From Betaproteobacteria bacterium (GTDB lineage Bacteria; Pseudomonadota; Gammaproteobacteria; Burkholderiales; Thiobacillaceae), in assembly GCA_016219425.1 (NCBI GenBank), contig JACRNB010000010.1:186001-250000 (forward strand): 64,000 nucleotides of DNA. Reading direction: 5' to 3'. Both the position numbers and the translations under genes were made by a program. Below the pieces are notes generated by a model that did not search any database, had not been told where the DNA came from, and worked only from the letters and a program-made list of their open reading frames with translations. How positions within the stretch are numbered: the stretch's first letter is position 1; every line of letters begins with the position of its first letter. Below are positions 37,755 to 51,029 of this stretch, piece by piece.

Positions 37755-41606
<3,852 letters not shown>

Positions 41607-41825
41607 GGCGTCAGGCCCTGAAGGGCGGCTGGATCGGGCGCGCGAGTTTAGCACCGGGGGGGAGGGCCCCTTCGGATGGACCATGCCAAGGGGATGGGCG
41701 GGAGGCGCCTGGTTCGAACAGGACATCTGCGCCCACCAAGGGGGCGCTTCCACGCCCGTTGGCAACATGGATAGCGCCATATCCGTCGCGCATCTCCGAT
41801 GTTGTCATCCCCGCGCAGGTGGTTT

Positions 41826-41908
41826 TGTAGGAGCCCGGCTGTGCCGGGCGATTGCGCCCGTTCACAGTGTTCGTGCGGATGATCGCCCGGCACAGCCGGG
41901 CTCCTACA
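41826..41908. repeat. Palindromic dispersed repeat (GTAGGAGCCCGGCT type), copy at island edge
   Basis: Complete palindrome upstream of metH and at the left edge of the accessory island. The stretch 41607-42020 otherwise holds the metH promoter region (no clear -35; a TAAACT lies near 41645 on the minus strand), this repeat and the hairpin at 41944; no other gene is convincing. Confidence 0.9.
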
Positions 41909-41943
41909 GGGTGGAGCGTCACCCAAGACAGCCGGTGGCATCC

Positions 41944-41964
41944 CAGGCTCAGGTTTTGAGCCTG
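41944..41964. repeat. Hairpin CAGGCTCA-N5-TGAGCCTG, left of a pair
   Basis: An 8-base-pair perfect stem with a 5-base loop. A second hairpin with the same GGCTCA-N5-TGAGCC core lies at 45575. Each lies 42-43 bases before an ATG preceded by CCCC, at the head of a short membrane-protein reading frame. Confidence 0.55.
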
Positions 41965-42020
41965 ACTGCGGTTAGAACGGTAGTGTGGATACCCGTTCGG
42001 AGCCCCCATGGGATGCCTGA

Positions 42021-42185
42021 TTGGCATTCGGGCCGCTGGGGATTTTTCTGCTGGGGCTGGCCCTGCTGATCCACCGCGCTGTGGTCGATTCAGCGGGAGC
42101 GCCCACGGCTCCACGTTCGTTGTTTTTTTCACTGATCGCCCTGCTTGCAGTCTGGCTCCTGGGGCGGACAGATGACGATGCGTAA
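42021..42185 (+). CDS. Possible small two-helix membrane protein
   Basis: 54 codons from a TTG: a first helix (LGIFLLGLALLIHRAVV), a Pro/Ala loop, a second helix (SLFFSLIALLAVWLLG) and an acidic end (RTDDDA). An ATG at 42008 lies in a different frame, so either the TTG is used or the gene is frameshifted. There is no good ribosome site. Similar small proteins flank the other side of the J-domain operon. Confidence 0.35.
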   Translation: MAFGPLGIFLLGLALLIHRAVVDSAGAPTAPRSLFFSLIALLAVWLLGRTDDDA

Positions 42186-42243
42186 TAGGTTCGGCGCCGT
42201 TTTTTGAATGACAAGTGACAAAAAGACAAAACAGGAACTTTCC

Positions 42244-43068
42244 ATGACCAACACCACCCTGCACCCGGACTGGGTCGCCCTCACGGACCGAGTCGCCCGC
42301 CTCAAGGAGGGGCTCGCGCTACTGCTGGAAGAGGAATCCCGACTCCTGCTCCAGGAACAGCCGGTGCTGTTCGCCGAATACCAGGCCAATCTGGGGGCGC
42401 TGGACCTGGACCAGCTGGTTCTCGACGCGGAATGCGCCACCCTGCGTTACCGGGTCGAACGCATCACCGCCCGCAAGAACCGGGTCGAGCCGATCAACGC
42501 CGAATGGCTCGCCCGACTGGATCAGGAAGTGGCCCTGGAACAAGCCGCCTGGGTCGAACGCCTGGCCGCGCGGGAAGTGGAACTGGCCAAGGGACTGGCG
42601 GGTTACCTCAGTCTGGCTCCGGTGGACCCGGTGATCCACGCCCGCTGCAAACAGGCCTATCGCCGTCTGGTGCGGTTGCTGCACCCGGACGTGACCCAAG
42701 ACCCGGAAGCCAGCCGGCGCTACTGGCAGGCGGTTCAGGAGGCGTACCGGGCGTGGGACGCCGATGCCCTGGAAGGCCTGCTGGCAGTGGTCCGGGTCGG
42801 AGACGAAACCCCCGAGGATGCACCCCAGGGGCTGGATGCCCTTGTCCAGGAAGTCTGTCGCCTGGAAACCCTCACCGACACCCTGCGGCAACGCCAGACT
42901 GCCCTGCTGGAGCGCATCCCCTTCTGCTACCGCGATCTCCTGGCTGATTCAGCACAGGTGGCCGCCCTGCGCCAGGAACGGCACGAAGCCATCGTCCGCG
43001 CCCGTACCCGGCGCGACCAGTTGGCGGCCCTGGTGCAGACCCTGCTGGAACCTCCGGTCTATCACTGA
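42244..43068 (+). CDS. J-domain (DnaJ-like) protein with long coiled-coil N-terminus
   Basis: 274 residues from ATG MTNTTLHPDW, with CAGGAA upstream; an in-frame ATG 12 codons earlier is possible. Residues about 10-125 are charged and helical (probable coiled coil). Residues about 130-185 form a J-domain: CKQAYRRLVRLLHPDVTQD with the essential His-Pro-Asp at 147-149, then YWQAVQEAYRAWDADALEGL. A second helical stretch follows. It would stimulate an Hsp70; no DnaK is nearby. Followed by the HIRAN gene after 1 base. Confidence 0.75.
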   Translation: MTNTTLHPDWVALTDRVARLKEGLALLLEEESRLLLQEQPVLFAEYQANLGALDLDQLVLDAECATLRYRVERITARKNRVEPINAEWLARLDQEVALEQAAWVERLAAREVELAKGLAGYLSLAPVDPVIHARCKQAYRRLVRLLHPDVTQDPEASRRYWQAVQEAYRAWDADALEGLLAVVRVGDETPEDAPQGLDALVQEVCRLETLTDTLRQRQTALLERIPFCYRDLLADSAQVAALRQERHEAIVRARTRRDQLAALVQTLLEPPVYH

Positions 43069-43069
43069 C

Positions 43070-43492
43070 ATGACCACGACCATCGCCTTGCCCGATACCG
43101 ACCTCAGCCGCCAGCTCATGCAGCATGGCCTGGGCGGGAGCGGCCTGCCCATCCCCTTCCTGGGACGGGAGATTGAACTGCTGGTCACCTACATCGCCGG
43201 TATGGAACACCACAACAGCCAGGAGCAAGCCCGCGCCCTGCCGCTGGAAGGGGAGTGCACCCTGCGGCGCGAGCCGGACAACGCCCACGATGAACGGGCC
43301 ATCGCCGTGCACTGGCAAGGCCGGCGCATCGGCTACGTCCCGCGTCGCTCCAACCCGGTTCTGGCTGCCCTGATGGACGCTGGCAAATTGCTTCGGGCGC
43401 GCCTGCTGGCCACCCGGCCCAAATGCCCCGCCTGGATGGTCAAGCAGGAGGGCCTTGACCGGGAAATCCGCATTCTTCTGGCGGAGCTATGA
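43070..43492 (+). CDS. HIRAN domain protein
   Basis: 140 residues. The C-terminal two thirds match the HIRAN fold: LRREPDNAHDERAIAVHW, then GRRIGYVPRRSNPVLAALMDAG. HIRAN domains bind DNA ends or stalled-fork structures and occur in SNF2 helicases (HLTF/Rad5) and as stand-alone bacterial and phage proteins. The N-terminal part (LPIPFLGREIELLVTYIAG) is the usual lead-in. Start is 1 base after the J-domain gene; the stop overlaps the next ATG (ATGA). DNA-damage sensing is inferred from the family. Confidence 0.82.
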   Translation: MTTTIALPDTDLSRQLMQHGLGGSGLPIPFLGREIELLVTYIAGMEHHNSQEQARALPLEGECTLRREPDNAHDERAIAVHWQGRRIGYVPRRSNPVLAALMDAGKLLRARLLATRPKCPAWMVKQEGLDREIRILLAEL

Positions 43493-45060
43493 ACCGAGGT
43501 CTTGTGAAAGGGCTTCTACAGCCGAGACTGCCGGTCGCTTTGCGCTGGTGCATGGCCCGTGCGGCCATTTTGTTCAATCGAGCTACTCGATGCCCTGAAC
43601 AACTGCGCCAGGACGATCTGCGGCGGATGCTGAATCTGGTTGGAGTGCTTTATGAGGCCACCCCAGGGCCGCTCAAAGGGCCGGACTTCCTGGCGCCCCA
43701 CTGGATCAGGAGCCTGGGCAACCTGACGAATTTGCCCATGGATGCCTGGGATTCGCGAACCGCCCGCCATGCGTATATCTGGCTGTGCTTCCTGCGTGGG
43801 CCGGTGGAGGGTTCTGTGCTGAGGCGCTATCCACTGCGGGTTGGGGAGGTTTTTGAATTGCCGCCTGGTTTGACCGACAAACTGGGCTACAGCGCATGGC
43901 GCGTACAGGAATTGGACGGGGCGGGGGCTTTCCTGACGCGCGGGCATGACGCAGTCTGGGTCCATTCACTCTTGGCGGGACTCTGGCTTACAGACCCGGT
44001 GGCGAGGGTTGAAGAGTTTGACGAGACGCTCCCGCTTTCGCATCGGTACTCCCCCAGGTTGGTCAGCCCAGCGCTGGGATACAGGGGGGCTGTTGTACAG
44101 CCTCAACGCGGGCAACCGGCAACTCACTCGCTAGGACAGCACTTCCAGGGAAACGCCCTGTGGGGATGGATCCAATGGACGATCTGTGCTGAACGGGACA
44201 CCGTTCTCAGCTTGAGTTATGTCTACCCTCCCTTCCTGGACATCTGGCTTTGGAATATCCACATCGCGGCAGATTGCTTGCCCTGCTCTCTTCATCTTGA
44301 TTGCGAGGGATACCAGCCCCGACTTACAGCCTTCATTCCCGCCGATGACCCGACCGCAATTGGTATCTCATTCCATAGCAGGGAAGACGAAGTTGGAGTG
44401 GTGATCGTACGCATGCCCCGCGAGAACTGGGTGCGACAGATGGGACAGGTGTTCCAGGATTTCTTCGCGGCGGATTACATCCCCTACCTATGGGAGACCG
44501 AGACCTTGGGGCAGGACCAGCCGGAATACCTGCCCTGGCATTTTCCGGCAGCCCTATATCAGGCCAGACCCGCCTATTCCCCGTTACAAAACCGCGCGCA
44601 ACTTTGGTTACGCCTGGCTTGGTGGTCGCACCGGACAGGCGGCAGTGGGTGTCAAAAGGAGATAGACGAGGCGTCTCGCAGGGCGAGATACCAGGGCCAA
44701 ACCTTGAACTGGGCGCTTTTCGCCTGGCTTTCCGCCAACGACCTGATGCCGGAAACCCCAACACCGCAAGCACTGCGTAACGCCTACGCCTTGCTTCCCG
44801 AAGAGTTGCGCGCCGCACTGGAAGAGGGGGACGCCGCCATCCGTCGATTTAAAGCCGAGGTTCGTGCATACAAGCCGGAACGTGATGCGGACGTACCTGA
44901 CCTGGCAAGGCTGAATTGGAAGGTTGCCATGGCGTTGGCCTGGGTCACACGACGGTTGAGGCGCTATTGGCCTGCACTCCCTAATGACCCGAATTGTCCG
45001 CTCGCTATAGCCAGTTCAGGATTGCTTGGGGGTGGAACCTCGAAGTCTGTGGCGTCGTGA
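43489..45060 (+). CDS. Large Trp-rich protein of unknown function
   Basis: 523 residues, not recognised. Trp is frequent (roughly 5 percent), with clusters such as LWGWIQWTI, IWLWNIH and LWLRLAWWSH. There are two possible halves: about 1-350 with mixed beta pattern and 360-500 more helical. No signal peptide, clear catalytic motif or nucleotide-binding loop was seen. Codon use is less GC-biased than in the flanking housekeeping genes, suggesting transfer. It is translationally coupled (ATGA) to the HIRAN gene, so J-domain, HIRAN and this protein probably act together. Confidence 0.7.
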   Translation: MNRGLVKGLLQPRLPVALRWCMARAAILFNRATRCPEQLRQDDLRRMLNLVGVLYEATPGPLKGPDFLAPHWIRSLGNLTNLPMDAWDSRTARHAYIWLCFLRGPVEGSVLRRYPLRVGEVFELPPGLTDKLGYSAWRVQELDGAGAFLTRGHDAVWVHSLLAGLWLTDPVARVEEFDETLPLSHRYSPRLVSPALGYRGAVVQPQRGQPATHSLGQHFQGNALWGWIQWTICAERDTVLSLSYVYPPFLDIWLWNIHIAADCLPCSLHLDCEGYQPRLTAFIPADDPTAIGISFHSREDEVGVVIVRMPRENWVRQMGQVFQDFFAADYIPYLWETETLGQDQPEYLPWHFPAALYQARPAYSPLQNRAQLWLRLAWWSHRTGGSGCQKEIDEASRRARYQGQTLNWALFAWLSANDLMPETPTPQALRNAYALLPEELRAALEEGDAAIRRFKAEVRAYKPERDADVPDLARLNWKVAMALAWVTRRLRRYWPALPNDPNCPLAIASSGLLGGGTSKSVAS

Positions 45061-45066
45061 ATTAGG

Positions 45067-45228
45067 TTAAGGGCTACGGGCGCTAAGTAGGCGCAGGGCC
45101 AGCCAAGCAAGCCGCAAGCAGAGTGCAGCGAACAGGATGCCGAAGATGGTAAAGGCCCATATCTGCATGGAGAGGAGAGTCAGCGTAGAGCCGATCAGTG
45201 CGAGCAAGAGGTAGGCGTCGGCGGACAT
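45067..45228 (-). CDS. Possible small two-helix membrane protein
   Basis: 53 codons on the minus strand starting MSADAYLLLALIGST; hydrophobic helix at residues 5-20, second helix IWAFTIFGILFAALCLRLAW, basic C-terminus (RLLSARSP). It ends 6 bases from the end of the Trp-rich gene. The ribosome site is weak. Grouped with the other short membrane frames of this island. Confidence 0.4.
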   Translation of the reverse strand: MSADAYLLLALIGSTLTLLSMQIWAFTIFGILFAALCLRLAWLALRLLSARSP

Positions 45229-45266
45229 GGATCAGTTATGGCCTTTGAACAAACTAAGTTGTGCTG

Positions 45267-45473
45267 TCAACGGGATATTCGGAAGCAAGGCGAGCTTAGA
45301 GTTGCCATCATTCGCCTTCGCCAGATGAATCCGATGATTGCCCCAAGGACGGCCATCAGCCACACACCGAATAGCAGCACGGCACCCAGAAACAGAGGTG
45401 CCACTGGGGAAATCCAAGTCAACACCGCCACCAAAGCGGCGCAAGCCAGCGGAATGTTCAGGGCGCCTGTCAT
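45267..45473 (-). CDS. Possible small two-helix membrane protein
   Basis: 68 codons from ATG MTGALNIPLACAAL; two hydrophobic helices (ALVAVLTWISPVAPLFLG, GVWLMAVLGAIIGFIW) followed by a basic tail (RRRMMATL). The frame is open 50 codons further upstream with no hydrophobic content. Codirectional with the small gene at 45067. Confidence 0.42.
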   Translation of the reverse strand: MTGALNIPLACAALVAVLTWISPVAPLFLGAVLLFGVWLMAVLGAIIGFIWRRRMMATLSSPCFRISR

Positions 45474-45574
45474 GGCGTCAGTATAGATATCCCATGTGGG
45501 GTGTATTGGACGCCAACGTCCATCTCTCCACCCAAGTGCCCGCAAGACTCCGCAGATCCATTCCCATCGCCAGA

Positions 45575-45595
45575 CGGGCTCATGTTCTGAGCCCG
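45575..45595. repeat. Hairpin CGGGCTCA-N5-TGAGCCCG, right of a pair
   Basis: Same stem length, loop length and GGCTCA/TGAGCC core as the hairpin at 41944. It lies 42 bases before the ATG at 45638. Confidence 0.55.
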
Positions 45596-45637
45596 GCCCG
45601 GTCCACACTGGGGATGCCCTCACAACCGGAGTGCCCC

Positions 45638-45856
45638 ATGTCTCCCTTTGATCTGTTGTGCAAATTGCTGGATGTCCTATTCATCGGGATCATGAATCTG
45701 GTTTCCCTGATGTTCTTTGCCATATTGGTCTCGCTGATAGTCTGGATGGAGCCCATCTTGGGATACGCCGTCGGCCTGGCAATTGCCTATCAGTTTGTGT
45801 TGCCTTTACTCCCCAGGGGTTCCAGGTGGGCGAGAACGGAGCAACGACGCGGATGA
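45638..45856 (+). CDS. Small two-helix membrane protein
   Basis: 72 codons from ATG MSPFDLLCKLLDV. Hydrophobic helices IGIMNLVSLMFFAILVSLIVW and ILGYAVGLAIAYQFVLPLL are followed by a short basic end (RGSRWARTEQRR). The best-looking of the four short membrane frames here; no family known to me. Confidence 0.5.
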   Translation: MSPFDLLCKLLDVLFIGIMNLVSLMFFAILVSLIVWMEPILGYAVGLAIAYQFVLPLLPRGSRWARTEQRRG

Positions 45857-45935
45857 GATGGATGGGAGAAGCCCCGTTGCCCTCCCCATTCCGACGGCTT
45901 ACATTTCGATCAATTAAGTAATTCAGGAGCTCGCC

Positions 45936-46160
45936 ATGCGCAGCACCCTCACCGAACGGGGCCAGACCGTGGTGCCCGCTGCGGTGCGCAAGCACTTTTC
46001 CCTCACTCCCTCGGATCGGCTGGAGTGGATCATCGAAGGCGACAGCCTGCGGGTGACGCCGGTACATGCCGACCCCATCGAAGCCTTTCGCGGACGCGGC
46101 AAGGGCGGGGCCGCCGACCGCCTGCTGGCGGAGCGCCACGCCGACGGCGAAGGCGAATGA
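45936..46160 (+). CDS. vapB: AbrB/MazE-type antitoxin (VapB-like)
   Basis: 74 residues with the swapped-hairpin AbrB motif at the N-terminus (STLTERGQTVVPAAVRKHF, LEWIIEGDSLRVTPV) and an acidic C-terminal tail that would bind the toxin. CAGGAG sits 8 bases before the ATG. The stop overlaps the toxin start (ATGA). Expected to repress its own operon, which here would include the restriction-modification gene. Confidence 0.88.
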   Translation: MRSTLTERGQTVVPAAVRKHFSLTPSDRLEWIIEGDSLRVTPVHADPIEAFRGRGKGGAADRLLAERHADGEGE

Positions 46161-46573
46161 AGCGCTGGCTGCTGGATACCTCCGCCCTGCTCGCCCTGCG
46201 GGATGACGAACCGGGTGCGGACGAGGTGGCCGATCTGCTGCGGCAGGCGCAACAGGGCAAGGCGCGCTGCTTCGGCTGCTTCATGACCCTGATGGAAGTG
46301 CATTACCGGGTCTGGAAGGATGAAGGCGAGGCGGCGGGGCGGCTCGCCCTGGCCCAATGCCAGGCCCTGCCCATCGAATGGCGGCACGAAACCCCCGAGA
46401 TGCTCGAAGCCGCCGCCCGTCTCAAGGCCACCCGGCGGGTTTCCCTGGCGGATGCCTGGATCGCCGCCTGCGCCGAACTCGAAGCCGCCACCCTGGTGCA
46501 CAAAGACCCGGAGTTCGAACCCCTGCCCTTGCCGCAAAAGCGCCTTCCCTACAAAGACAACCAACCAGCATGA
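46157..46573 (+). CDS. vapC: PIN-domain ribonuclease toxin (VapC-like)
   Basis: 138 residues. Acidic PIN residues: Asp7 in [11 protein letters not shown], Glu in [11 protein letters not shown], Asp in [13 protein letters not shown], and a final Asp in HKDPEFE. Predicted Mg-dependent RNase inhibited by the VapB-like protein. ATGA overlaps join it to the antitoxin upstream and to the MmeI-like gene downstream, making one translational unit. Confidence 0.9.
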
Positions 46574-48429
46574 CCCCCGAAACCTTCATCGCCCGCTGGC
46601 GCGACGCCGACGGCAGCGAACTCGCCAACGCCCAGAGCTTCACGCGGGAACTGTGCGAACTGCTGGACGTGCCCATCCCCGACCCGGCGCGGGCCGACAC
46701 GGCGGAAAACGCCTATGTGTTCGAGCGCCGCGTCACCTTCCGCCACGGCGACGGCAATACCAGCGAAGGCCGCATCGACTGCTACCGGCGCGGGGTGTTC
46801 GTGCTGGAGGCGAAAAAACTCAAACTGGGCGGCCATACCAAAGGCTTCGACGACGGCCTCCTGCGCGCCCGCGCCCAGGCCGAGGGCTACGCCCGCGCCC
46901 TGCCGGCGGAAGAGGGGCGCCCGCCCTTCCTCATCGTCGTGGACGTGGGCAACGTCATCGAGCTGTACGCCGAATTCAGCCGCAGCGGCGCCACCTACAC
47001 CCCCTACCCGGACCCCCGCTCCCACCGCCTGCGCCTCGCCGACCTGGCGGACCCGGCGGTGCGGGAGCGCCTGCGCCAGGTCTGGCTCGACCCCGTAAGC
47101 CTGGACCCGGCCCGCATCTCCGCCCGCGTCACCCGCGACATCGCCACCCGGCTGGCGGACGTGGCCAAGAGCCTGGAGGCCGATGGCCACGCCGCCGAAA
47201 CCGTGGCCGGCTTCCTCTCCCGCTGCCTGTTCTGCATGTTCGCGGAAGATGTGGGCCTGCTACCCCGGCGCGCCTTCTCCGACCTGTTGGAAAGCCTTTT
47301 GCTCCCCTCCCCCGCCGGGGGAGGGGTTGGGGGTGAGGGAGCAACGGTTCCATACCCGCAACCGTCGCTCCCTCACCCCAGCCCTCTCCCAAAGGGAGAG
47401 GGGGCAGCCTCCCAGTTCGTCCCCCAGTTCGTCCCTCTCATCGGCGAACTCTGGCGCGCCATGGATACCGGCGCGTTCTCCGTCGCCCTGCGCGCCCAGC
47501 TCCCCCGCTTCAACGGCAAGTTGTTCAAGGACGCCACCGTCCTCCCCCTCCACGCCGGCCAGATTCAACGCCTGCTCCACGCCGCCCGCGCCGACTGGAC
47601 TCTGGTGGAACCCGCCATTTTCGGCACCCTGCTGGAACGCGCCCTCGACCCCCTGGAGCGCCACGCCCTGGGCGCCCACTACACCCCGCGCCCCTACGTC
47701 GAACGCCTGGTCCTGCCCACGGTGATCCAGCCCCTGCGCGCCGAATGGGCTGACGTGCAGGCTGCCGCCCTGGTGCTGGCGGGGGAAGGCAAACTCGACG
47801 CCGCCCGCGACGCCGTCAACGCCTGGCACCACCGCCTGTGCCAGGTGCGGGTGCTGGACCCGGCCTGCGGCTCCGGCAACTTCCTCTACGTCAGCCTGGA
47901 GCACATGAAACGGCTCGAAGGCGAAGTGCTGGGCTTTCTCGACCAACTGGGCCACGGCCAGGCGCGCCTGGAGACCGAAGGCCTCACGGTGGACCCGCAC
48001 CAGTTCCTCGGCCTGGAACTCAACCCCCGCGCCGCCGCCATCGCCGAACTCGTACTCTGGATCGGCCACCTGCAATGGCACTTCCGCACCCGGGGACAGG
48101 CCTTGCCGCCCAACCCCATCCTCAAAGACTTCCGCAACATCCAATGCCGCGACGCCGTGCTCGCCCATGACGGCTTCGACTACGCCACCGACGCCCGCGG
48201 CGCGGTACAGAGCCGCTGGGATGGCCGCAGCTTCAAAAAGCACCCCGTCACCGGCGAAGACGTGCCGGACGAAGCCGCCCAGGTTCCGTTGGAGCGCTAC
48301 CGCAACCCCCGCCCCGCCGCCTGGCCCGAAGCGGATTTCGTGGTGGGCAACCCGCCCTTCATCGGCGCCGGCCCCATGCGCGCCGCCCTGGGGGACGGCT
48401 ACGTCGAAGCTCTGCGCGGGGCGTGGTAG
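46570..48429 (+). pseudogene. MmeI-like restriction-modification enzyme, N-terminal half, ended by in-frame amber
   Basis: 619 residues before a TAG at 48427-48429. The nuclease motif Asp70-X9-Glu80-X-Lys82 ([17 protein letters not shown]) has the MmeI-family spacing. Then come [35 protein letters not shown]-binding motif [12 protein letters not shown] (Asp430) and catalytic NPPF (Asn594). Expected to be a fused type IIG/IIL adenine methyltransferase-endonuclease. Protein similarity continues in the same frame past the stop, so this is a nonsense-interrupted gene unless TAG is read through. A C/G-rich repeat is inserted in frame at 47301-47405. Starts by ATGA overlap with the toxin gene. Confidence 0.85.
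47301..47405. repeat. C/G-rich palindromic repeat in frame inside the MmeI-like gene (1)
   Basis: Read as [15 protein letters not shown] then [12 protein letters not shown]. Between the nuclease/helical region and the methyltransferase domain. Confidence 0.88.
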
Positions 48430-48575
48430 GACGTGCCCGACTCCGCCGATTTCGTCATGTACTGGTGGCATCTCGCCGCGCAACAGGCCCGGGCCGGACG
48501 CCTGCGCCGCTTCGGCTTCATCACCACCAACTCCATCCGCCAGACCTTCAACCGGCGGGTGATCGAAGGGGCTTT

Positions 48576-48757
48576 GCTCCCCTCCCCCTCGCCTTTACCC
48601 CCCTTTTCCAAAGGGGGGCCAGGGGGGATTCCTACGGCCCTGCCCCCCTCCCCCGCCGGGGGAGGGGCTGGGGGTGAGGGAGCAACGTCCGCCAAGCACG
48701 ATGCCGCTGCTCCCTCATCCGGCCCTGCGGGCCACCTTCCCCCGGAGGGGGAAGGGC
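48576..48757. repeat. Composite repeat inside the MmeI-like gene (2)
   Basis: A C/G-rich palindrome whose left part is interrupted by a second type of element (CCCCCCTTTTCCAAAGGGGG, then GCCAGGGGGGATT). Read in frame as PPFSKGGPGGIPTALPPSPA and [10 protein letters not shown]. The nested type also occurs at 58864. Confidence 0.85.
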
Positions 48758-49076
48758 GGATACACCTCGCTTACGCCATCCCCGACCACCCCTGGGTGGA
48801 CAGCGCCGACGGTGCGGCGGTGCGCATCGCCATGACCGTGGGCGCGCCGGGGCCGGGCGAGGGGCTGCTGGCGCGGGTGACGGCGGAACGGGAAGGCAAG
48901 GGCGAAGGCCTGGAAGTGGACCTGGACGAACGCCGGGGCGTGATCCATGCCGACCTCAGCGCCGGCGCCAACGTGGCGGCGGCGGTGGCGTTGCGGGGGA
49001 ATGGAGGCGTCAGCTCGCCGGGATTCAAGCTCCACGGCGCGGGCTTCATCGTTACCCCCGAGCAGGCCGCCGCCCT

Positions 49077-49192
49077 GCTCCCCTCCCCCTCCGGGGGAGG
49101 GGCTGGGGGTGAGGGAGCAACGTTCGCCAAGCATGCCGCCGTTGCTCCCTCATCCGGCCCTTCGGGCCACCTTCCCCCGGAGGGGGAAGGGT
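49077..49192. repeat. C/G-rich palindromic repeat inside the MmeI-like gene (3)
   Basis: Read as [15 protein letters not shown], then SSGPSGHLPPEGEG. The right arm is the CCGGCCCTTCGGGCCACC variant shared with 48576 and 57528. Confidence 0.88.
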
Positions 49193-49910
49193 TGATTCGC
49201 CCCTACCGCAATGGGCGCGACCTGACGGACAAGCCGCGCGGGGTGAGGGTCATCGACGCCTGGGGGCTCAGCGAACCGGACCTGCGCCAGCGTTACCCCG
49301 CCATCTGGCAATGGCTGTATGAGCGGGTGAAGCCGGAGCGGGACCACAACGCCCGCGCCAGCTACCGCGACAACTGGTGGTTGTTCGGTGAACCGCGCCG
49401 GGAACTGCGCGCCATGCTCGCCGGCCTCCCCCGCTACATCGCCACGGTGGAGACCGCCAAGCACCGGGCCTTCCAGTTCCTCGACGCCGCTATCGCCCCG
49501 GACAACATGCTGGTCTGCATCGCCGTGGACGACGCCTATGCCCTGGGCGTGCTCTCCTCCCGCATTCATGTCACCTGGGCGCTGGCGACGGGCGGCACCC
49601 TGGAGGATCGGCCTCGCTACAACAAAACCCGCTGCTTCGAAACCTTCCCCTTCCCCGACCCTGGTCCCGAGCAGGCCCAGCGCATCCGCGCCCTGGCGGA
49701 AGAACTCGACGCCCACCGGAAGCGCCAGCAGGCCGCCCACCCGGACCTCACCCTCACCGGCATGTACAACGTGCTGGAGGCCCTGCGGGCGGGCCGCGCC
49801 CTGACGGCCAAGGAAAAAATCCTCCACGAACAGGGTCTGGTCTCCCTGCTCAAGCAGATCCACGACGACCTGGACGCCGCCGTGCTGGCAGCCTACGGCT
49901 GGGATGACCT

Positions 49911-50035
49911 GCTCCCCTCCCCCTCCGGGGGAGGGGCTGGGGGGCGAGACGGGGGTTTCGCTGAGCATGCTCAGCGCCCGTCGAGCGGCCCCGGCATGCA
50001 GGCCGGGGCGCGCCCTGCAAGGGAGGGAGCAACGG
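49911..50035. repeat. C/G-rich palindromic repeat inside the MmeI-like gene (4)
   Basis: Left arm as in the other copies ([14 protein letters not shown]); the right part is rearranged, with CTGAGCATGCTCAG and a GCCCCGGCATGCAGGCCGGG hairpin inside. Still in frame. Confidence 0.8.
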
Positions 50036-50145
50036 TAAGGGACGAGCAACTGCTGCACCGCCTCGCCGCTCTCAACACCCAACGCGCCGCCGAAGAGGCC
50101 CAGGGCCATATCCGCTGGCTGCGTCCGGCGTTCCAGACCCCCGAG

Positions 50146-50257
50146 GCCCGTAGCCCGGATGCAGCGCAGCGGAATCCGGGGCTGTTGCTGGAAGAGGGGG
50201 AGGGCGAGGCCGCGGCCCTGGATTCCGGGGCTGTCGCCCCTGCATCCAGGCTACGCC
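50146..50257. repeat. GTAGCCCGGATGCAGCGCAG-type repeat inside the MmeI-like gene (5)
   Basis: Outer arms TAGCCCGGATGCAG and CTGCATCCAGGCTA with inner GGAATCCGGGGCTG/GGATTCCGGGGCTG segments. A different dispersed family from the C/G-rich one, also in frame (read as RSPDAAQRNPG). Confidence 0.8.
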
Positions 50258-50487
50258 CCGCCGACCGCCAGCCCTGGCCCGCCGCCCTGCCGGAACAGGT
50301 GGCCGCTGTGGCCGCCGTGCTGCGCGTCGCCCTGACCCCGCTGACGGAGTCGGACATCGCCGCCCGCTTCGCCGGCAAGGGGCCGTGGAAGAAGCGCTTG
50401 CCGCAACTGCTGGATACCCTCGTCGCCCTGGGCCGCGCCCGGCAGGCAGGGGAGGGCTTCGTGAGCGCCAATCAATAGAAATAACTG

Positions 50488-50515
50488 TTGGCTATATAAA
50501 TTGACTGAATAGAAT
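50488..50515 (+). promoter_or_regulatory. Possible sigma-70 promoter of the rhodanese gene
   Basis: TTGGCT and TAGAAT with a 16-base A/T-rich spacer, right after the MmeI-like gene and about 125 bases before the rhodanese ATG. The rest of 50479-50642 holds nothing else I can identify. Confidence 0.4.
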
Positions 50516-50642
50516 GAAATCAGACCTTCGATTCCTGAGCGCCATGACCTTGCCGATACCTCCGTTTTTCCCTCTCCTGGTTCGATGTCGGTGCTGCGCT
50601 TCTGTCCACAGCACCGCATGAATTGACCACCTGGAGACCGCC

Positions 50643-51029
50643 ATGAAACACCTGACCCCGAAAGAAACCGCTGATTTTCTGCATGCCAACCCCAACGCCG
50701 TGTTCATCGACTGCCGCTCGGAATGGGAATTCCTGTTCGTGGGCCACCCCATCGGTTCCATCCTGATTCCCTGGTACGAGGGTGAGAACTGGGATCTGAA
50801 CCCGCGTTTTCTCGGCGAAGTGCGCATCGCCACCTCCCATAACCGCCCGGTGGTGCTGATCTGCCGTTCCGGTAACCGCTCGCGCGAGGCGGGGGAGTTC
50901 CTGGATCAGCATGGCTTCCCGGAGGTCTACAACGTGCTGTTTGGGTTTGAGGGGGAGCTGGATGAAAATCATCGGCGCTCCACCCAGAACGGCTGGCGTT
51001 TCGATGGATTGCCCTGGGAACAATGCTGA
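50643..51029 (+). CDS. Rhodanese-like sulfurtransferase
   Basis: 128-residue single-domain rhodanese, cytosolic. FIDCRSEWEFLFVGHPIGS corresponds to the CH2A region; the active-site loop is LICRSGNRSREAG with catalytic Cys in CRSGNR. Donor and acceptor are unknown; such proteins move sulfane sulphur. Stands between the accessory island and two small exported proteins. No clear operon partner. Confidence 0.9.
   Translation: MKHLTPKETADFLHANPNAVFIDCRSEWEFLFVGHPIGSILIPWYEGENWDLNPRFLGEVRIATSHNRPVVLICRSGNRSREAGEFLDQHGFPEVYNVLFGFEGELDENHRRSTQNGWRFDGLPWEQC

Follow-up and report, generated by a model that had tools for sequence, protein, structure and literature searches.

Genes of the locus

The window analyzed here is a stretch of 64,000 nucleotides (contig JACRNB010000010.1, positions 186,001 to 250,000) from a Thiobacillaceae genome (assembly GCA_016219425.1). 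Its forward strand carries three tightly packed genes, coding for a J-domain protein (gene 1, 42244-43068, 274 amino acids), a HIRAN-domain protein (gene 2, 43070-43492, 140 amino acids) and a tryptophan-rich (Trp-rich) protein (gene 3, 43489-45060, 523 amino acids, 4.4% Trp). One base separates the J gene from the HIRAN gene, and the start of gene 3 overlaps the HIRAN stop (ATGA). The coordinates agree on these points with an earlier sequence-only reading, which had described the three genes as one module and placed the HPD motif of the J protein at residues 147-149.

The J protein has a minimal J motif lying between two helical hairpins. Its match to the Pfam DnaJ family (E 8.3e-6, 26.3 bits) covers positions 17-51 of the 63 in the profile and does not include helix I; because the domain is only partial and the score lies slightly under the curated cut-off of 27.8 bits, “J-like” is the safer name. 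The HPD motif is invariant across the 14 rows of the alignment on which an AlphaFold model of the protein was built (mean predicted local distance difference test (pLDDT) 77.3, predicted template modelling score (pTM) 0.58). The model predicts a helical hairpin (residues 8-118), two J helices (129-146 and 154-169) flanking HPD, and a second hairpin (197-268). When it was searched against viral structures, no match was better than E 0.014 and the top TM-scores were about 0.2, with phage proteins named as J-domain or DnaJ-like at ranks 2 to 4. In the libraries searched here, family matches of this helical-type protein are confined to the J part, and no PADLOC model matches it.

The HIRAN protein scores 49.5 bits against the Pfam HIRAN family (cut-off 24.7) and has no strongly hydrophobic segment. 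The HIRAN profile A3 matches the HIRAN structures of lp_0118 (3k2y) and human HLTF (4s0n/4xzf), the latter domain being known to bind DNA ends. Within an N-x-Y-D stretch, which aligns with 3k2y and HLTF and presumably touches DNA, N71 and D74 are invariant in A3, and the window protein has His73 in place of Tyr. According to the sections consulted of one study, the Phe required for duplex binding is missing in most bacterial HIRAN domains compared, and binding of single-stranded DNA is possible (PMC8262856); prokaryotic HIRAN domains are called uncharacterised in the part seen of another (PMC11090510). Gene 2 probably codes for a binder of DNA ends or single-stranded DNA. In PADLOC it matches PDC-M03B alone, over the HIRAN domain (profile from about position 130 of 250).

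Conservation of the J-HIRAN pair

Relatives of the J protein were sought with gene 1 aligned to a hand-written consensus of a clostridial J family taken to have the same layout. The scan of genome contigs used J-protein patterns only, with HIRAN playing no part in the selection. It gave 18 loci (L and G numbers are our labels for loci and genomes), all in Bacillota, with matches spanning at least 230 of the 274 residues of gene 1; within the best segment, 21-29% of positions are identical. In 17 of them the J gene is immediately followed by a HIRAN gene (131-136 codons). Among 20 further genomes from the class of G838 there were three matches, two of which are true J relatives, both followed by HIRAN; the third, an ordinary DnaJ beside an apparent DnaK, was excluded from the count. 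Overall, HIRAN directly follows 19 of 20 near-full-length J relatives in Bacillota genomes, although these are not all independent (L163 appears identical to L129 and L135 to L134; L128 and L131 are similar to L121 and L126). Moreover, a search with the HIRAN profile found four viral contigs, two with identical DNA, and a J gene lies upstream in all of them. For 20 pairs the gap between the two genes was tabulated, and it ranges from -16 to +8 bp. HIRAN was also searched for, at 1e-6, in the whole genomes behind nine of the 18 loci: eight have a single match, located beside the J gene, and the ninth has none.

Pairwise distances among the J proteins follow those among the HIRAN proteins (r = 0.976 for 21 loci including the window, 0.972 for 12 non-redundant ones), a correlation never matched in 2000 permutations. 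This demonstrates joint inheritance and not contact. That the two genes are a conserved pair is, in our view, almost certain. Each domain alone is already known, and the pair itself appears undescribed: no account of it was found in the literature covered, which held few subscription papers, nor in the parts seen of, for example, PMC7464499, PMC11706625, PMC2292703, PMC7641849 and PMC5512222.

Some variation is seen around the J gene. The J proteins of L129, L138 and L147 carry an extra N-terminal part, with a DUF6508 match in L129, and at L164 the gene of an apparently repeat-type protein overlaps the J gene by 4 bases.

Limits of the pairing

Matches to gene 1 are present in 17 of 101 genomes of relatives and in 69 of 369 genomes of the class (own genome included in both), mostly through the J motif alone; one match, in G349, is weak but long (residues 20-245, E 2.6e-4). 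No relatives of gene 1 were found in plasmids (E 1e-3) or phages (E 1e-2). Among 398 Pseudomonadota genomes, the only full-length match to the J profile is that of the window's own genome, while a match in G587 is ended by a contig edge and three others are partial, which makes the pair of the window a rare member within its phylum. J proteins of about 400 amino acids from the same genus or order (L021, L022, L024 and L025) have no HIRAN gene in the 5-20 kb read around them. At L056 (8694-10600), in the same class, an apparent Sel1-like repeat gene is directly followed by a J-type gene and then an ATPase gene, possibly another J-family operon.

The majority of the HIRAN genes encountered in this analysis have no J gene beside them. 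HIRAN genes occur in 72 of the 101 genomes of relatives, and those read are a different gene from the window HIRAN. Many of the HIRAN genes read (L001, 1489-1878; L088-L117) start, as judged by eye, with an export signal, which is odd for a DNA-binding domain. HIRAN matches are also present in 32 phage records (H46-H77), mostly phages of Pseudomonas, Xanthomonas and Stenotrophomonas. In three plasmid cases no J gene is annotated near HIRAN; the HIRAN gene adjoins a manganese catalase gene in Pelagibacterium (L118, 4917-5321) and a nuclease gene in Lactobacillus (L120, 5842-6288).

The Trp-rich protein

An open frame of the full length of gene 3 arose in none of 1000 order-1 Markov sequences of its own composition. 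With the six neighbouring genes as codon-usage reference, its own frame scores highest of the six possible frames, yet far under genes 1 and 2 (-0.52 versus +0.36 and +0.32 bits per codon). As the sequence-only reading had pointed out, its codon use is less GC-biased, with a G + C content at third codon positions (GC3) of 0.66 against 0.79 for the J gene and 0.82 for the HIRAN gene. We take it to be a real gene, presumably of different origin.

No match to gene 3, whether to a housekeeping family, as had been considered, or to any other, was found in Pfam, PADLOC, NCBIfam or PHROGs. Besides its own genome, no relative is present in 100, 368 and 119 genomes of relatives, class and phylum, respectively (overlapping samples), nor among plasmids, phages and PDB sequences. 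The same holds for genome contigs and viral contigs, in scans that need exact short peptides and detect close relatives only, and for the neighbours of the 18 J loci, where a looser scan gave only noise (E 1.9 and above). A 516-amino-acid neighbour of HIRAN on a Lactobacillus plasmid was considered as a parallel and rejected, being unrelated to gene 3. A single-sequence AlphaFold model was worthless (mean pLDDT 38.1).

Because no search found a relative and codon usage differs, gene 3 does not appear to be part of the conserved unit, and the overlap is the one thing that ties it to the other two genes. The module proposed from the sequence therefore holds for J and HIRAN, linked in the Bacillota relatives and by their correlated distances, and not for gene 3. 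Its adjacency may even be accidental, a foreign gene having been dropped behind J-HIRAN. This is a serious possibility, if short of an even chance, which concerns gene 3 only and is compatible with any reading of the other two genes; the lack of relatives and the low GC3 favor it, whereas the ATGA overlap, which suggests coupled translation of HIRAN and gene 3, speaks against it. That all searches failed to detect gene 3 elsewhere weighs against its being an essential part. It could be a newly gained partner or effector, a client whose folding J and DnaK maintain, or cargo.

The genomic island

The three genes lie in a 9.0-kb island (41610-50642) between metH, which starts at 41609, and a rhodanese gene (50643-51029). 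The metH regions of 11 relatives were fetched, out of 34 with a match, with about 14 kb requested beyond metH (two stretches are short, L154 with 1.8 kb and L160 with 5.2 kb). In six of the 11, 57-254 bp lie between the metH match and the end of the rhodanese match, and in the other five no rhodanese match lies within the stretch read. Neither J, HIRAN and gene 3 nor the toxin-antitoxin and restriction genes described below have a match in any of the 11. The locus is an acquired island, and its site is empty in those relatives where metH and the rhodanese gene adjoin; the sequence-only reading had suggested looking for such a site. No integrase was found among the island open reading frames read.

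Pfam and PADLOC agree with that reading on the downstream cargo of the forward strand: a VapBC-like pair (45936-46573), made of a MazE/AbrB-type antitoxin (45936-46160) and a PIN-domain protein (46157-46573), and an MmeI-like type IIG restriction-methylation gene (46570-50478). The reading frame of the latter is broken once, by an in-frame stop (48427-48429) that is either a true mutation or a sequencing error.

At least three short two-helix membrane frames had been noted around the trio, and four were found, each with two hydrophobic segments. Those on the forward strand are at 42021-42185 (TTG start, 54 amino acids, just 5' of the J gene) and 45638-45856 (72 amino acids from an inner Met of a longer frame, with no Pfam or PADLOC match); those on the reverse strand are at 45067-45228 and 45267-45473 (inner Met start of a longer frame). 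With the frames split evenly between the strands, no more than two can belong to the transcript of the trio, and nothing ties these frames to it as the membrane component formerly suggested.

G/C-rich repeats of about 45 nt, with inverted copies, lie at 38361-38856, 47300-47405 and 48641-49956, inside the metH and restriction-gene frames, where they add Pro/Gly-rich stretches to the products. On the metH side, the edge of the island carries a perfect 27-nt inverted repeat (41826-41908).

Possible function

J proteins with an HPD motif activate Hsp70. Because the pair is kept over large distances, its simplest meaning would be that HIRAN directs the J protein, and hence DnaK, to DNA for the remodelling of complexes, which is tentatively our best explanation, at somewhat under even odds. 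The HIRAN protein would bind single-stranded DNA or the ends of broken DNA, and the J protein would partner with it via the helical hairpins, its HPD motif recruiting and firing the host DnaK at that site. Protein complexes on damaged, stalled or foreign DNA could then be pulled apart or reshaped, in a repair or anti-invader role. The unit would move between genomes as accessory cargo, sometimes beside restriction systems and here in the 9-kb island, with gene 3 as a lineage-specific addition to the operon, perhaps an effector or client. We infer the physical interaction, the DNA binding, the use of DnaK and the biological role.

Several observations weigh against this explanation. The DnaJ match of gene 1 is below the cut-off and without helix I, and the window HIRAN carries His where the presumed DNA-contact stretch has Tyr. 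Plain vertical descent would also give correlated J and HIRAN distances. The pairing has exceptions: L137, a close J relative, has no HIRAN in its genome; the remoter Pseudomonadota J relatives L056-L059, recognised by profile or phmmer matches only, have none in the 11-20 kb read at each; and by a simple HPD pattern no other J gene lies within about 1.5 kb of the HIRAN genes at L061-L117. Finally, some pairs (e.g. L136 and L133-L135) lie, by reading, among apparently ordinary chromosomal genes.

These last surroundings, with no mobile or defence gene nearby, are what a housekeeping aid in DNA repair or fork rescue would show, one that hitch-hikes on islands with gene 3 as unrelated cargo on the same transcript. 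The HLTF HIRAN has been implicated in replication-fork remodelling, according to the part consulted of PMC8262856. Against this role, which we think unlikely, stands the patchy spread of the pair, with one full-length case in the 398 Pseudomonadota genomes (the window's own) and three in 21 genomes of the class of G838, itself included.

No more probable, in our view, is a dedicated anti-phage or anti-plasmid system, in which HIRAN senses the DNA ends or replication intermediates of an invader, J and DnaK pass the signal on, and the effector is an interchangeable third component, in this locus the Trp-rich protein. It would fit the acquired island with its toxin-antitoxin pair and restriction gene, the N-terminal additions to the J proteins of L129, L138 and L147, and the overlapping repeat-type gene of L164. 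Restriction genes lie near J-HIRAN in eight of the 18 loci scanned. When 21 J loci were set beside 20 control stretches, restriction genes were present in 10 and in none, respectively, a partly circular comparison with unmatched controls. The restriction neighbours support the sequence-only reading as far as J and HIRAN are concerned. On the other hand, no shared third gene was found, PADLOC touches the pair only through the HIRAN domain (PDC-M03B), several pairs have housekeeping-like surroundings, and the commonest Pfam family among the scanned neighbours is NUDIX (5 of 113 proteins). A reading unlikelier still puts J-HIRAN at the core of a class of conflict systems not yet described: a HIRAN reader would aim Hsp70 at foreign or broken DNA, and the exchangeable effectors would be the Trp-rich protein here, the N-terminal fusions in some Clostridia and, in others, a repeat-type protein.

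For the favored placement of DnaK on DNA by HIRAN, the conserved pair offers a concrete proposal of how chaperone power might be directed to particular DNA structures, and each of the two families gains a candidate partner, in repair or defence.

Comparison with known systems

No PADLOC model of a known anti-phage system matches genes 1 and 3, and gene 2 matches only PDC-M03B via its HIRAN part. The HipIN and HipL modules are similar in being small operons with a HIRAN protein suspected of reading DNA ends, as described in the part seen of PMC8262856. They differ in that the partner of the window HIRAN is a J protein, and the PDC-M03B match covers the HIRAN part only. No HipA-type kinase, by which HipN and HipL are recognised, was matched in Pfam among the three proteins and six further island and flank proteins scanned; PDC-M03B itself is presumably HipN, which is a guess on our part. 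The HIRAN domains of HLTF (4s0n, 4xzf) and lp_0118 (3k2y) are detectably related by sequence to that of the window, which is a stand-alone protein of 140 amino acids with no helicase attached. With the DnaJ and CbpA co-chaperones, gene 1 shares the HPD motif and helices II-III, whereas its match lacks helix I and no other DnaJ domain is found in Pfam, the helical hairpins being present instead. An analogy in working may be the replication complex of phage lambda, which DnaK and DnaJ remodel, Hsp70 likewise dismantling proteins on DNA; there DnaJ itself finds the client, whereas for J-HIRAN a separate DNA-binding partner is proposed.
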